DNA of 64,000 bases from Siphonodentalium dalli (lineage: Eukaryota > Mollusca > Scaphopoda > Gadilida > Siphonodentaliidae), in assembly GCA_032622095.1 (NCBI GenBank), contig CP136065.1, positions 23,817,141 through 23,881,140 on the forward strand, written 5' to 3'. Of this stretch, positions 27,287-64,000 are shown piece after piece. The first letter of the stretch is position 1. Each line of letters opens with the position of its first letter. A program made the translations under genes and the position numbers. The notes under the pieces were generated by a model. That model made no database searches. It was not told the DNA's origin and saw only the letters and a program-made list of their open reading frames with translations.

Positions 27287-28156
27287 TCATTGTTTGCACT
27301 CCAATACATTTGGGTAATCCTTCCAAAATTTCTGTCCGATTATATCGCAATTGAGTATATTTATTTTCACTTTCTTTGATTTACGGCGGATTTGATTATC
27401 TCCCGAGTCTGAAGCGTCATTCTCAGTTTGAGATACTGATACCACATTCTTCACCAGAACTGTTCCTTTCCTATACAATTCAGGAAGGTTGTTATAATTT
27501 GTATCAAACTCAGAAAACAGGATCTCATTTTTATCAGCAGAAAGAGTTCCCTTGAGTCTCTGTTGAGCATCACTTGGTGACATTCCACCTTCTTGTACTA
27601 ACTTCCAGAAACATGTATTATACATATTATTTATATGACAGTCTGCTTGCCGCCAGCTTAAATAATCACGTAGATTTTGATCAGATGGATAGAGAACAAC
27701 CCTGGCATCAAACGATGGTGGATACTGCAATTCTTGAGATTGGAAATATTTCGGCCAGTTGAAGACATAACTGGATGCAAATAAGCTGACCACATTTGTC
27801 ATTATTTTACTACTACGTCTATTATACATCTTCGATGATTTGTTGAAAACGAAACTATATTCATCACTCTGCCCATAAGCCAGAACGCTATCACTAAATT
27901 CCTCCATAACACATTGCGCACATTTCGTCATCAACCCCAAACCTCGGTCATCATTCGGTTTAGTGAATTTGTGCAGGTCGGTAAATCTGTGGAACGCTTT
28001 CCCATCGATTCTGACAACAATCCAGCAATTTGTCAGGCATCGGTCGTCACTTTCAAATTGCTTCACATATTCGAATTTGCTCTTAGCCATTATCAGCTTT
28101 GATACGGAATAGAAACAACGACTAATGAAATATTGGGAATTGGGAGAAATAAGCAT
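27287..28156 (-). CDS. THG1L: tRNA-His guanylyltransferase
   Basis: Adds G(-1) to the 5' end of tRNA-His, the identity element for histidyl-tRNA synthetase; family members also act in mitochondrial tRNA repair. The 289-residue frame matches the family end to end: MAKSKFEYV at 23-31, metal-binding [10 protein letters not shown] (Asp51), [10 protein letters not shown] (Asp98), [17 protein letters not shown] (the HINxxYN signature), the AADKNEI-like [12 protein letters not shown], and the C-terminal [14 protein letters not shown]. Length is close to the human protein (~298). Residues 1-22 before MAKSKF are basic/hydroxylated and could be a mitochondrial targeting peptide; initiation at Met23 (28090) would give a cytosolic form. 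The whole gene is one exon, whereas vertebrate orthologues have several introns. No stops or frameshifts. Confidence 0.97.
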
Positions 28157-56323: not shown

Positions 56324-56446
56324 GTCTTGGAGAAACTTTGCCAAATATGGATGGGGATGACTCCCTTTACTACAAGATGGATTCCACATTCGACAAATGC
56401 CTGGCTGACATGAAGCCTTATGTTGTGAAACTAGGCGAGAAATCAG
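56324..56446 (+). CDS. CEP112: CEP112 coding exon 1
   Basis: Acceptor CAATTTTAG, probable 23 nt of 5' UTR, ATG at 56347, donor G|GTAAAA, phase 1. An upstream non-coding exon is implied. Confidence 0.85.
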
Positions 56447-59400
56447 GTAAAATTTGGTATAATAGTATACCTTACTTGTATTTAAATTCGTGCAGTATAT
56501 TTTTCGCTCAGAATTAAAATCGCGCACCTACATGTATCTGCGTGAATTCAAAACTGACAAAAATATTTTCTTAGTCCTTCCTGAAGATACATGTATATAT
56601 TTAACATGATCATGGCAAATTTATATCCTGTAGGCTATAACTGCATGCATTGCTGTGATGGTTGATGTTTATATACTCCAAATAATTATTCTGATAGTGA
56701 AATAGTTATGGACAGGACGTCATTGAAATGAACTCGAAAACAGAAAACTACAACCGCAAAGGCAACTGACTCCAGAAAAATTTGGCTGTGGGTTGTGATG
56801 ACATAACTAACTCAGAATGTACAAGCCTTGAAATAGTGTGCCTGTCATTTTCAGAATGAGGTCCCCAGAGGGTGAATTTAGTGATGCTACCCCGCATAGT
56901 GGGCTAGCATCACCAAATTCACCTTCTGGGGACCTCATTCTGCTTACACCTCAGCAGAATGAGGTTCCCAGAGGGTGAATTTGGTGATGCTAGCCCGCTA
57001 TTCGGGGTAGCATAACTAAATTCACCCTCTGGGAACCTCATTCTGCAAATGACAGACACACTATTTCAAGGCTTGAGAGTGTATGGTCATGGTGTCACTC
57101 CAGGATGGCGAATGGGAGGATGTGCATTCATGCACATGTAATTCTAGAATATATGTATTTCTTACAAGCATTTCAACATCGTCGAGGTTACCATGTTTTG
57201 TACATTGCTTGGCAATGAGTAATGGCTTTGGATTTTTTTTTTATATTGGTTGACCAAATGTAAATGTAGGCCCACATATATAGGCGTAATTGTCTATTCA
57301 GTGTTCAACCTTTCATAATGTGTGTAACTCATCAACATAACCCTCGATCTTGTTTTCCCTGTGGTTCATTAGTTTAAACTCATGAGTTGTACTATTTTTC
57401 ACTCATTTTAAATTGGCACACCGATGGATGCATGAAAAGTAATACTGCACAAATTTAAATATTAGTAAGTTTTGTTTCAATTGACAGTGTAAGTTCTTAA
57501 CCTTGAGAACCCTTCACTATAATTCATTGTCTGAATTGGCCATTGGACTCACTTAATATTAAGGTATCATCATAGGCAGATAGAGACAAGTGTGTGAAGA
57601 AGGTGAACGTTATCAAACAAGTTTATTGTGGCATAATGTTACAAAAGTTGTAACTTCTGGCATAACAAAGGAGTGCGATACATTTCACATTCTTCACACA
57701 TCTGTATGGTTCTGTGTTTATTACACACCAGCAATCAATATTCTTTAGAATCAAATAATTGTTTTTGTTTTGTTACATGCTAGTTAGTCGTCTAATCAAC
57801 ACATTATGAGGTTGAATTTTTATTGTACTACCGGTTTGATTTTTGTTCATTACGTCATTTTCTCCATGCAATTGGGATCGCTCTAGTGAATTTGGGTGAA
57901 GTTACCAAAACGGGCTGAAGTAACGTAATCGACTTAAAATAGCTATATGTGTGTAATAAATAACTTTATTTCATCATTCATTTGTGGCAAATTATTCTAA
58001 ATCTATATTTTTCAGAAAAGAAGTTGCATCTTTAAACCAATGTTTTATTGTAAAGCTGTAGCCTTAACTAGTGTAAGCATTGGTTTTATTTCGAGGAAAA
58101 GATACTGTTGAAGCTATTTTGCACATTTTCAAGACAAACTTCTTGGCTTTCTCAAACAAGAATTAATTATAAATAATAAAACAATGTCTCGTGAATGAGT
58201 GTACTTGATCCCAATATTTGCTTTTCGTGATTTTCATGCCGATTTTTCTTTTATAAATATATTTTTTTTGAATGCTATTTTTTAAATTTTTTTATTTTTT
58301 TATTTTGTCTTTTCAGAGAGACAGAAGTGTGCAGTATGGATTAAAAAGTTATGTGAACCAACTGTTGGTGTCTCCGGACGGTGAGTGACTACTGCTTATA
58401 AACAGATAATTCAGAATTCATACAATTCAGAAAAGGAATAAATATTAGGTTGTTCTTATCAATTACAGACGCTTCATTGGGAGACATATTTACAGGAATT
58501 TTTGGCAGTTTGCTAACTTTGCAATACTTAGTAGTCATCATAAGTCACTTCTCATGAGGCAAATATTTTACTTCTGTTTGTTAATAATTACTAGTCGATG
58601 CTATCAGTTACTTCTACTGTCAAATATCAAACAAACAGACCCTGCTTCAAAACTGCTCCAACTCATGTCTTTGCTATTTATTGTCCCCTGAAATTTTTTA
58701 ATCAGCCGCATCCGTCCATGTATGTGTCTGTCCGAATCCTTGTGCAGACATTAAAGCCATGGATGGCATTTGTAATATGGTTAAAATATGAATGGAATTT
58801 TGTCTTTGAACTAGCAAATAACAAGCGCTATAAAGATATCGTACAGTTGTATCACCTAATGTGCTTCCGAGTCTGTCTGCCCCAGATGGTTTCCTGATGA
58901 TAACTTGACTTTTTGTTATCTGATTGTTTTCAAATTTCGTATTGGATTACCCACAGGAAAATACAGGTCAAGTACGAACTTGGGTTCGGTCCACCCATGG
59001 TTGTCAGAGTTATGTTGGAGTTATGGTCCTTGTCAACTTTGAATTTGCAGAATATATTTTGATTTCCGGTGATAACTTTAGTTATAGTTATCTGATTGTT
59101 TTAAAATTTTGAACATGGATTACACATATGTGAATACAGGCCAATTTGTGTTTGGGATCCATCCACCTATTTTTCCCGGAGTTATGGTTCATGTTTTAAA
59201 ATTTGATGATTATTTAGGTTTCCGGGTGATAGCTTTAGTTATAGTTCTGGTTGTTCCTAGAATCAATTTTCATTTCTAAAAATGCCACCAGTCAAATTAA
59301 GCCACATATTCAGGGGCCATGTGGCCCGATGGCCTTTTATTTACTTTGAAATCACAGTTTTTGTGTTGTCTGATTTATAACTTTGGTACATGGTTCACAT

Positions 59401-62400
59401 TGAGAAGACGCAGCTCAAGTTCGCATTCGTCTGGTGATTTTTTATGAAGTTATGTCTTTGACTCAGTAATAATTAATTTTTGAGTTGTCCGGATGATAAT
59501 TTGTACAATTTTAAAGACATATTATGGACTTATTCGAGTGCGTTAAAATGATAAGTTAGTAATCAGGCGCTATGCCAACCTGGGGAACGTAACATTCCAC
59601 TAACATCGCCTAAAATTGAAAAGAAATCGACCATATCACACCATAAAAAACATCGCCTGAACTATGGCCAAGTGTAAATATTTACATCTCGATTCGGGAC
59701 TCAATTTTCGGCGATAAACTAACACAAATGGTTTCGCCATCGAGAGTCATTGCATTTAGTTAATATATACGAATGGGGGTGTGTTGTCAATTTGAATTAA
59801 TATTCGTAAAAATAACAACTTTGAGCAAGAGTATTCTCAATTTCTATTTGATAATACTACCGGAGTGTTTCACATCACTTTAACAGAATTTCTTGATACT
59901 TGGTAAATGGTTTACAGTTCAGAAAACACAGTTCAAGTTCACGATCCAATGATTTTTGATGGATTTATGCATCTTTGTTTGACTTAAGAATCCTAATTTT
60001 CTGTTGTCTAAATGATAACTTGAGCAATCTTCTAAAGAATCTGATATTTAGTATCGGTTCACCTTTGAGAACATGCAGGTCATCAAGCCTTGAAATAGTG
60101 TGTCTGTCATTTGCAGAATGAGGTCCCCAGAGGGAGAATTTAGTGATGCTACCCCACATAGCGGGCTAGCATCACCAAATTCACCCTCTGGGAACCTCAT
60201 TCTGCTGAGTTGTAAGCAGAATGAGGTCCCCAGAGGGTGAATTTGGTGATGCTAGCCCGCTATGTGGGGTAGCATCACTAAATTCTCCCTCTGGGGACCT
60301 CATTCTGCAAATGACAGACACACTATTTCAAGGCTTGCAGGTCATCATCAGGTTGGAATAAAATTTTGCCCCAAAAAGTCACCTCTTTTCGGGTGATGTG
60401 GGGTCTGCGACATTTAATTTATTGATTATGTTTTCTCTTCACAGAAAAAATCGCAATTTGTATGCTGAATTGTTACTACATATGCTTAAAAAAGTCAAGC
60501 TTGATCCACCTTTCACAAGCAAGCCTGATTATGGGCCTCTACCATCACTGCCATCATATACGGTATGTTTAAATTGTCAATAAACATTGCATATTTTACT
60601 TTTGCCATCTGGTCATGTCATCTGTTTATGATCTTTGAATGAGATTTTGAGTTTTCATAAATTTTAGCTGTGCATTAAGTATTCAAATTAAAAGATATAA
60701 GTTTACGATATATATCACAAATTAATTATCAATTATGAATGGGAATTTAAATTAATGTCATGAAAAGGTGATCACACCGGTGGAGGCGATGATTTCATGA
60801 AATTTACAACACTGTCAGTGCCGGGTGTTGATGTAATAATATCACGAAAGGCTGTCGCTATGCCACCTGCATTCAAGTCAACATTGACACACTAATATGA
60901 TGTCAAACTGTTGTTTTTCTTTATTAAAGAAAGATTCATAAATATTTGTTAGTATATAAAATATAATATACAAACATATTGTTTTCCAGACAATTTACTT
61001 TGATGATGCTCGAGGCTGTGATATTGATAAAAAGGTTAGTTTGAATATCCATCTTCTTCAAGTGAAATATTATATGAAACAACCACAATTAAGAGTAAAA
61101 GTTCTATTGTGGTAGAGCCTACCTTTAAGAGTCTTCATCATGCATTTAATGAATATTCATGCAATACCAAACGGAACACAATCCAACATTGCATCACAAG
61201 ACACATGGACGACATCACACACATCTATACAGGTAGCTTGACTTCCAACATCAAACATCACATTGACACCAAGAGATTACACATCATGTCTCACCAAGAG
61301 ATGAAGAGATGACCCTGGCAAACAAATACATAGGTTGTAGTTGTTGCCTGACCATATCCAGAATGGATATGTATAAATATATATAAAATGTAATGTGTCA
61401 ATAACCAACTTCCCTATTGTCGATATGAAATCTACTTTGACATAGTTAGAAACAAAACCTATATACTAGTATAAAAGGGGGATTATGAACGCAGCATGCG
61501 ATTTCTACATCCCTACACTATTGGGCAAATATATTTAAGCAAATGTGACCATCTCTACAGTTCTAAACGAAGACTTAAAATATTATTAAAAACATGATAT
61601 TAATGAGTAAAAACATATAACAAATATCACAAATATCACATACCATCCTGGGGAAGCATAGGTCTGATGTCATTGTAGTTTACAGTTAACTTTATAACTT
61701 TATAATCATTCTTCAGGCATTGAAGAATTACATGTACGATAAACTGAGTGTGAATATGACAGAGTGACGTTGACAGCTCGAACGCAAATTATAGACTGAA
61801 AAGCCCGCGAAACTATTTTACCTCAACTTACCTGTGATTGGCTGCTATTGTTAGTCTCCGACGACTGTTTGATCTCAGATTGGGCGCTAACATAGACAGA
61901 AGGTAGAGTGAGTGGATAAGATATTGGGCTAAGAAAAGAATATGAATATAGCAAAATGGAGAACAGACATGCAAGTGGGAACGGGATTTGAGATAGGTGG
62001 GACAGCGGAGAATGAATCCAAGTATGCGAAATGAAATGATTACGATGCGGCTATAAGATGTATATTAGTTAGTTAGGTTTTATAACTGAGTTAGTATACA
62101 TGCTACAACAATAAAGGCATATACTGTTTTGTGTAGAAAATAGCATTGTCACACTATGACTACATGGTTTTGTTTTATGTTTACCTTACGGTTGCTAGAC
62201 TATTTTCGCCGGAATATGCCGATGTCATTCGTGAGGTCAATTTTAAAAATATGAGGTCAATTTTTAAAATATGTCAACGCTGCGGTAAATGTCTCTTTTC
62301 ACATTAAACTACCACTTTCAATTGACAACTGATGTGGTTTTCAGAACAAATATCATGTCTTCTACGGAATAAACCCATTTTATTGTCACAATTGTGATAA

Positions 62401-63732
62401 TTGATTACATTTAATTGTGTTTTTTTGTGAACTGATCACGAACGCGTAAACCATGTCATACAAATGGTAACGGGACGTTCTCGTACTAAAACTAGCATCT
62501 CGCTATCCCAATATCTTAGCTGGTTTTAGTACGAGCAGACTTGGACTATTCTTCGGTATGCTATCAAGAATGGTGGATAGGATCTCCATATAAGACAGGC
62601 TATGTCTGCACAATGCCAAAGTTATAGGTCTTGTTAGACTTAAAGAAGTGAAACTATTCTCTCCATGTAGCTCAGATATGATGTTGGGAATCAAATTTTA
62701 CATTACTTGTATTCTATTTTATTCTATGTCTCAAATAAAATTTTCAAAAGAAAGTTTCCTCTCTTAAGAATGCAATGATTTCCAAGCTGGTTGTCAGGGG
62801 TTTATGATCAAAAGTATCATTGCACTTATGTGTACTGACACTTGTTAATTTTTAGGGTGATGTACCAGATTGGGTGGCTGGGGAACTGGACACAGCTGGT
62901 TATGTGTACTGACCCTTGTTAATTTTTAGGGTGGTGTACCAGATTGGGTGACTGGGGAACTGGACACAGCTGATTATGTGTACTGACCCTTGTTAATTTG
63001 TAGGGTGATGTACCAGATTGGGTTGCTGGGGAGCTGGACACAGCTGGTCCATCATTGTTTATTTTTAGGGTGATGTACCAGATTGGGTTGCTGGGGAGCT
63101 GGACACAGTTGGTTCATCATTGTTTATGTTTAGGGTGATGTACCAGATTGGGTGGCTGTATGTGTACTGACCCTCGATAAGTTTTAGGGTGATGTACCAG
63201 ATTGGGTGGCTGTATGTGTACTGACCCTCGATAAGTTTTAGGGTGATGTACCAGATTGGGTGGCTGGGGAACTGGACACAGCTGGTTCATCATTGTTTAT
63301 TTTTAGGGTGATGTACCAGATTGGGTGGCTGTATGTGTACTGACCCTCGATAAGTTTTAGGGTGATGTACCAGATTGGGTGGCTGGGGAACTGGACACAG
63401 TTGGTTCATCATTGTTTATGTTTAGGGTGATGTACCAGATTGGGTGGCTGTATGTGTACTGACCCTCGATAAGTTTTAGGGTGATGTACCAGATTGGGTG
63501 GCTGTATGTGTACTGACCCTCGATACGTTTTAGGGTGATGTACCAGATTGGGTGGCTGGGGAACTGGACACAGCTGACTCATCATTGTTTATTTTTAGGG
63601 TGATGTACCAGATTGGGTGGCTGGGGAACTGGACACGGCTGGCTCATCATTGTTTGGATCATATCCAAGGTCGTCGACATGGAAACACAAACCAGGAGAG
63701 GATGGCGACAATCTGCTGCTCTCGCCCAGAAG
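56347..63732 (+). CDS. CEP112: Centrosomal protein 112, N-terminal five coding exons
   Basis: CEP112 (CCDC46) is a coiled-coil centrosome protein. Five exons chain in phase (1,2,0,0,2), giving 153 residues plus two bases, and the gene runs off the window. They match the vertebrate N terminus: a start MDGDDSLYYKMDSTFDKCL with DMKPYVVKL, then ERQKCAVWIKKLCEP, GRKNRNLYAELLLHMLKK, PSYTIYFDD, and GDVPDWVAGELD. This is the globular region (DUF4485-type, as I recall) before the coiled coils. The start at 56347 aligns with the vertebrate start; the frame is open five or so codons further upstream to the acceptor at 56323. Introns hold foldback MITEs, and the last intron carries twelve decoy copies of the next exon's 5' part. 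Confidence 0.93.
56823..57074. mobile_element. 252-bp compound foldback MITE
   Basis: Outer inverted ends AAGCCTTGAAATAGTGTG; inside are two consecutive GAGGTCCCC/GGGGACCTC hairpins. Flanking 10-mers CAGAATGTAC and GAGAGTGTAT match at 7 of 10. In CEP112 intron 1. Confidence 0.88.
57075..58316. other. CEP112 intron 1, remainder
   Basis: No repeats or ORFs of note. A pyrimidine-rich tract lies before the exon 2 acceptor (58260-58316). Confidence 0.5.
58317..58380 (+). CDS. CEP112: CEP112 coding exon 2
   Basis: Acceptor TGTCTTTTCAG, 64 nt, donor CG|GTGAGT, phase 2. Encodes ERQKCAVWIKKLCEP. Confidence 0.95.
58890..60080 (+). repeat. Degenerate ~170-bp tandem repeat in CEP112 intron 2
   Basis: GATAACTT.AGTTATAGTTATCTGATTGTTTT, GGATTAC.CA, AATACAGG and CCACCC..GAGTTATGG-type words recur at about 58908, 59072 and 59226, more weakly at 59355-59520 and 59890-60080. 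Interrupted by a family E element. Confidence 0.65.
59515..59879. mobile_element. TTAA-flanked element, family E
   Basis: TTAA at 59511-59514 and 59880-59883. AGACATATTATGGACTTATT to GTGTTTCACATCACT; AGTGATGTG/AGACAT ends. Related copy at 23311-23673 supports these boundaries. Confidence 0.75.
60085..60336. mobile_element. 252-bp compound foldback MITE with perfect 10-bp duplication
   Basis: GCAGGTCATC at 60075-60084 and 60337-60346. Outer ends AAGCCTTGAAATAGTGTGTC, inner double hairpin as in 56823-57074 and exactly the same length. It lies 108 bp upstream of CEP112 exon 3. Confidence 0.93.
60445..60562 (+). CDS. CEP112: CEP112 coding exon 3
   Basis: Acceptor TCTCTTCACAG, 118 nt, donor ACG|GTATGT, phase 0. 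Encodes KNRNLYAELLLHMLKK and PPFTSKPDYGPLPSLPSY. Confidence 0.96.
60990..61034 (+). CDS. CEP112: CEP112 coding exon 4
   Basis: Acceptor TTGTTTTCCAG, 45 nt, donor AAG|GTTAGT, phase 0. Encodes TIYFDDARGCDIDKK. Confidence 0.88.
61035..62830. other. CEP112 intron 4, 5' part
   Basis: No gene recognised. 61500-61900 has weak similarity in word order to 53840-54460 (AAATATATTTAAG, ACATGAT, ACATACCA, TTACCTGTG with a nearby CCAAT/ATTGG), possibly a shared old repeat. Confidence 0.35.
62831..63598 (+). repeat. Tandem array of partial CEP112 exon 5 copies with AG acceptors
   Basis: Twelve copies of TAG|GGTGATGTACCAGATTGG start at 62856, 62930, 63004, 63069, 63134, 63188, 63242, 63307, 63361, 63426, 63480 and 63534, followed by the true exon at 63599. 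Spacings are only 74, 65 or 54 bp. The 65-bp type is the last intron bases plus the first ~58 bases of the exon; the 54-bp type breaks off after GTGGCTG and continues TATGTGTACTGACCCTCGAT; the 74-bp type has GTACTGACCCTTGTTAATTT. None has a 5' splice site. Confidence 0.96.
63599..63732 (+). CDS. CEP112: CEP112 coding exon 5
   Basis: Acceptor TTTATTTTTAG, 134 nt, donor AG|GTACAT, phase 2. Encodes GDVPDWVAGELDTAGSSLFG and continues to DGDNLLLSPR. Only this copy in the array extends past the TCATCATTGTTT point and has a donor. Confidence 0.92.
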
Positions 63733-64000
63733 GTACATTTTTAGCTCAATTTGACAATGTCATGTTTGAGCTTTTGCCATGGGTTAGTGTCCGTGAGTCG
63801 GTTCGTCTATCAACAATTTCCTTTGGCAAACCCTACAGGCCATATCCGACATCCGATCCTCAAAAAACACTTTATATGGATCTTTGGGCTGACCTATAAA
63901 TGGGAGCCATTGATTTTTTTCTGACATTGGTTAAAAAGCACAGCCACCAGCAGCCATCTTGGATTTCACATTTGAATCCATTCATTGGCACGCCTTGCAA
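63733..64000 (+). other. CEP112 intron 5, start
   Basis: Non-coding; TTTGACAATGTCATGTTTGAGCT and GGCCATATCCGACATCC-like words resemble bivalve intronic repeats. The plus-strand ORF crossing the exon here (63552-63899) is in the wrong frame. Confidence 0.5.

Follow-up and report, generated by a model that had tools for sequence, protein, structure and literature searches.

Twelve tandem copies of an intron 4/exon 5 junction in a CEP112-like gene of Siphonodentalium dalli, probably a passively spliced 'mirage' minisatellite

Results

A CEP112-like gene in the window

The stretch of DNA analysed here (64,000 nucleotides, hereafter the window) carries coding exons 1-5 of a CEP112-like gene, which share one reading frame when joined and are separated by introns of 1.9, 2.1, 0.4 and about 2.5-2.6 kb (Table 1). 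The joined exons matched PF14846 (DUF4485) over positions 1-83 of 83 with 89.5 bits, the domain being complete across exons 1-3, and DUF4485 was found at one place in the assembly, which holds one copy of the gene, in intact form. Further downstream, at 73948-89430 on the numbering scale of the window, several E/K/Q/L-rich, coiled-coil-rich open frames with AG/GT flanks were found, as would be expected of CEP112, and these exons presumably resemble human CEP112 closely. The complete DUF4485 and the downstream coiled-coil exons support the assignment to CEP112 made in the initial annotation. A sequence search of the PDB found no relative. A search with the haemocyanin domain PF14830, made as a test for a mollusc, gave no match, a result that is compatible with a molluscan host.

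Two other features were observed in the window. A palindrome-like 103-bp dimer (AGAATGAGGTCCCCAGAGGG...) is present in two copies, in introns 1 and 2 of the CEP112-like gene (56852-57046 and 60113-60308), and is likely a mobile element that also occurs elsewhere in the window. On the minus strand, a single-exon frame at 27287-28156 encodes complete Thg1 and Thg1C domains and is a tRNA-His guanylyltransferase gene.

Table 1. Exons of the CEP112-like gene and units of the array ahead of exon 5, in window positions.
Feature	Position	Strand	Remark
Coding exon 1, from ATG	56347..56446	+	joined-exon DUF4485 match
Coding exon 2	58317..58380	+	AG/GT flanks; joined DUF4485 match
Coding exon 3	60445..60562	+	single-exon DUF4485 match
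Coding exon 4, 45 nt, phase 0 end ...AAA AAG	60990..61034	+	
Original intron 4 3' end TTATGTGTACTGACACTTGTTAATTTTTAG, branch-site-like TACTGAC, acceptor 1	62826..62855	+	
Two 74-bp units	62856..63003	+	43-45 nt of exon 5 + 29-30 nt of original intron end
Two 65-bp units	63004..63133	+	57 nt of exon 5 + ATTTTTAG / ATGTTTAG
Two 54-bp units	63134..63241	+	weak donor-like GTATGT at 63158, 63212
65-bp unit, copy 7	63242..63306	+	
54-bp unit, copy 8	63307..63360	+	weak donor-like site 63331
65-bp unit, copy 9	63361..63425	+	opens repeat of copies 4-7 as copies 9-12
Two 54-bp units, copies 10 and 11	63426..63533	+	weak donor-like sites 63450, 63504
65-bp unit, copy 12; intron 4 3' end for true exon 5	63534..63598	+	G>A at 63577 gives AGCTGAC, putative branch site
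True coding exon 5, 134 nt, GDVPDWVAGELDTAGSSLFGSYPRSSTWKHKPGEDGDNLLLSPR	63599..63732	+	
Exon 5 donor AAG|GTACAT	63733..63738	+	sole donor scoring >4.3 in 62856-63760

Thirteen tandem starts of exon 5

The start of exon 5 was located 13 times in tandem, each time with an AG before it (62856, 62930, 63004, 63069, 63134, 63188, 63242, 63307, 63361, 63426, 63480, 63534 and 63599) and each time opening with the shared motif GGTG[A/G]TGTACCAGATTGGG. From 5' to 3' the copies are spaced by 74, 74, 65, 65, 54, 54, 65, 54, 65, 54, 54 and 65 bp, and only the last copy continues into the full 134-nt exon with its good donor. Independently, Tandem Repeats Finder (TRF) reported the array at 62826-63655 with scores of up to 1091, and a chance origin of the repeat is therefore excluded by the array itself and by TRF. 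When the array was used as a query against the whole 2.23-Gb assembly one place was matched, and no second copy of the locus was found in that search. The initial annotation had proposed twelve duplicated junctions ahead of the true exon, unit lengths of 74, 65 and 54 bp and a minisatellite derived from coding sequence, all of which were upheld. It had also given every copy a TTTTAG acceptor and 26-50 exon bases, and here it needs amending: copy 3 reads TTTGTAG and copies 5 and 10 read ATGTTTAG, while the exon portion is about 25 nt in the 54-bp units, 43-45 nt in the 74-bp units and 57 nt in the 65-bp units.

The three classes differ in how exon and intron sequence are joined. In the 74-bp units the exon portion is followed by 29-30 nt of the original intron end (TATGTGTACTGACCCTTGTTAATTTTTAG), whereas the 65-bp units carry exon 5 sequence ending TCATCATTGTTT and then ATTTTTAG. 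The junction of the 65-bp unit sits in TTGTT, which is common to the intron end and exon 5, and a microhomology-mediated tandem duplication is therefore a plausible origin for this unit. The 54-bp unit, with 29 nt of intron-like end, corresponds to the 74-bp unit minus 20 bp plus several later substitutions; these units are near-uniform, four of the five being identical and the fifth one base off.

Copies 4-7 recur as copies 9-12, with 5 differences over 238 nt. The internal units are homogenised and the boundary units are distinct, with private states in the first copy (GACAC) and in the last (G39, C45). All 12 units contain the start of exon 5 and an acceptor, and so span the exon/intron boundary; an AG acceptor is present in every copy, and each has a branch motif or a tract. 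At positions 39 and 45 the true exon 5 has bases that the copies do not share, in each case a synonymous difference, and replacement changes were found in copies 2, 3, 4, 9 and 12, a pattern of tiny numbers that fits the copies being non-coding.

Splice signals and reading frames of the 13 acceptors

Splice signals were compared with a reference set of 19 acceptors and 19 donors taken from the CEP112-like gene and from myosin exons elsewhere in its genome, using models that are either small (this set, picked by ourselves) or approximate. A first, trained acceptor model penalised the branch motif within the 22 nt that it scores and was not relied on for the 74-bp type; acceptors were scored with an approximate general acceptor model plus a branch-site score. 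On this approximate scale the true acceptor (copy 13) scored 8.8, real acceptors 1.7-11.3 (n=19), copies 1-3 9.4-10.0, copy 12 8.3 and copies 4-11 4.0-6.2. The simple view that the last acceptor outscores the others was thus ruled out, as copies 1-3 score as high or higher, and local signal strength therefore does not explain the choice of the last acceptor.

The 13 acceptors, described in the initial annotation as near-identical, fall into three types that differ in predicted strength. Behind the 74-bp units the branch site is strong and the tract is kept, behind the 54-bp units the tract is poor, with a competing AG 6 bases upstream after units 5, 6, 8 and 10, and behind the 65-bp units the branch site is poor, the true acceptor excepted. 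Copy 13 alone among the acceptors after 65-bp units has a strong branch motif, its putative branch adenosine having been made by the G>A change listed in Table 1.

The donor of exon 5 scored 8.7, and no copy other than 12 and 13 is within 200 nt of it. The statement that no unit has a donor was not quite right, as GCT|GTATGT occurs in all five 54-bp units, albeit as a weak site (4.3, compared with 6.8-12.8 for 18 of the 19 real donors). The predicted disruption of the protein held throughout: an in-frame TAG closes the 54-bp unit, each of the 65- and 74-bp units moves the frame by 2, and translation from acceptors 1-11 would stop after 17-44 codons. From acceptor 12 the frame is shifted, yet open through the end of exon 5.

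Junction duplications elsewhere in the genome

Self-comparison of 60 loci with myosin or kinesin exons, a small and partly paralogous sample of a single genome from which no rate is claimed, recovered two further duplications of a junction. In a paralogous myosin pair (L011 1608-1756 and L009 1446-1594, G000 C4) about 67 bp containing the exon 3' end and a GTAGG donor are tandemly duplicated in two copies, and in a kinesin exon (L065 1591-1779, G000 C1 about 88002 kb) the exon end and donor are repeated in tandem, giving three AAATAAG|GTATAA donors. With CEP112 included, the sequences point to three independent events, one on the acceptor side and two on the donor side.

Other repeats were seen in passing. 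Minisatellites of 38 bp (7 copies, 74038-74312) and 57 bp (12 copies, 74316-74998) run from the donor of the CEP112 exon at 73948-74034 (L033, numbering scale of the window) with no exon sequence repeated; the 38-bp array was considered as a further case of junction duplication and rejected, since it begins within the intron and copies nothing of the exon. In another kinesin exon (L056) a 39-nt stretch has a 79% identical counterpart in the intron, some 230 bp further upstream (1573-1611 and 1804-1842), possibly a decayed exon duplication. About 90 near-identical protein kinase genes without introns form a tandem group at G000 C2:149.83-150.60 Mb, with 281-codon frames, many of them equal-scoring.

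Discussion

We consider it probable that the array is a 'mirage'-type minisatellite which arose from the intron 4/exon 5 junction, is now intronic and is passively spliced out, most likely with near-neutral effect. It would have arisen by tandem amplification of the junction through unequal exchange or replication slippage. The sequence shows that the original intron end is preserved in the first 74-bp copy and that a block of 4-5 units was duplicated later. Normal splicing of the pre-mRNA would be expected to join exon 4 to the last acceptor (63598/63599). Judging from established knowledge of splicing, exon definition should govern this choice because intron 4 is long, and the upstream acceptors would be passed over because only the last one is followed by an entire exon and, at close range, a good donor; on this reasoning, use of the last acceptor is likely. 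The last acceptor also has both a tract and a branch site that has been restored. Acceptors further upstream would open either a long exon without a nearby good donor or, where the weak GTATGT donors occur, weak pseudo-exons, and mis-splicing, chiefly to acceptor 12, should yield a minor frame-shifted product.

The strong local signals at acceptors 1-3 and 12, and the stop or frameshift that follows from every upstream acceptor, would suit a regulatory array in which some transcripts use an upstream acceptor, meet a premature stop and enter nonsense-mediated decay, so that array length tunes CEP112 output. We regard this as unlikely, as 877 nt separate acceptor 1 from the sole good donor and as both the lancelet mirages and CBS 844ins68 (see below) are spliced correctly as published. 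A very improbable alternative would have the 54-bp units serve as 24-nt in-frame microexons (GGTGATGTACCAGATTGGGTGGCT, GDVPDWVA), sometimes included to add extra peptide copies. Each of these units does contain an acceptor, 24 nt in phase 0, a GTATGT and a TACTGAC branch motif, and GTATGT is frequent among the donors of this genome, but the site has a poor exon side (GCT) and scores below nearly all real donors, the acceptor tracts of the 54-bp type are near background AGs by the trained model, and the introns between adjacent units would be only 30 nt.

It is similarly hard to credit that a single junction was multiplied through misassembly. Tandem repeats are prone to this, and the draft genome of a lancelet had one globin mirage wrongly assembled (PMC3087553); against it stand the private differences, the three length classes and the nested higher-order duplication among the units, the length of the array (0.8 kb, shorter than one long read) and an assembly of 9 contigs of 200-300 Mb.

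If the passively spliced array is indeed spliced correctly, it constitutes a natural 13-way acceptor competition assay in which a single transcript presents three defined architectures, and a direct view of the extent to which exon definition prevails over strong upstream sites. Should junction duplication be frequent here, as three independent cases in a small sample suggest, the 'mirage' process of lancelets would reach another animal lineage, as would the part in intron gain that has been proposed for it. The full combination, in which junction amplification is frequent genome-wide in this non-lancelet lineage (CEP112, the myosin pair and kinesin), feeds new introns, and the length of the CEP112 array tunes output, seems doubtful to us.

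Comparison with known systems

In human CBS, 844ins68 is a 68-bp tandem duplication of the intron 7/exon 8 junction that produces two close splice sites, of which the distal is strongly favoured (PMC2630376). It is a two-copy analogue in that the junction is duplicated as in the CEP112-like array, although it is a human polymorphism with one extra copy where the CEP112-like array has 12. The same human gene has a 31-bp VNTR that spans exon 13/intron 13. By the title of a study cited in PMC2630376, this exon-intron boundary minisatellite is associated with reduced enzyme activity. Both it and the CEP112-like array are minisatellites at an exon-intron boundary of a gene, but the VNTR lies on the donor side and has a shorter unit and a measured effect.

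The closest description is that of the lancelet 'mirage' minisatellites, minisatellite-like tandem duplications of an exon/intron boundary reported in Adh3, the globins BflGb6 and BflGb9, TnC and PGBD5 (PMC3087553, PMC3902484). Mirages were named in Adh3; they are unstable in length and somatically, and are spliced regularly as far as RT-PCR suggests. Two haplotypes of BflGb6 carry 6 and 3 repeats of the 3' intron end with the 5' part of the exon, and RT-PCR again suggests normal splicing (PMC3087553). The PGBD5, Adh and TnC mirages are described likewise (PMC3902484), and for lancelet mirages in general RT-PCR and cDNA data suggest normal splicing (PMC3087553, PMC3902484). Like the CEP112 array, lancelet mirages have boundary-spanning units with splice signals, homogenised internal units and different boundary units. 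The BflGb6 mirage has units of 150-160 bp, whereas the CEP112-like array has its 12 extra units of 54-74 bp in a 2.23-Gb genome of 9 contigs of 200-300 Mb, unlike the karyotype of a lancelet and speaking against a cephalochordate host; and length instability and correct splicing are documented for the lancelet mirages, whereas the CEP112-like array was seen in the sequence of one haplotype. On this comparison, the CEP112-like array fits the already described mirage class, on the acceptor side, and is most probably passive.
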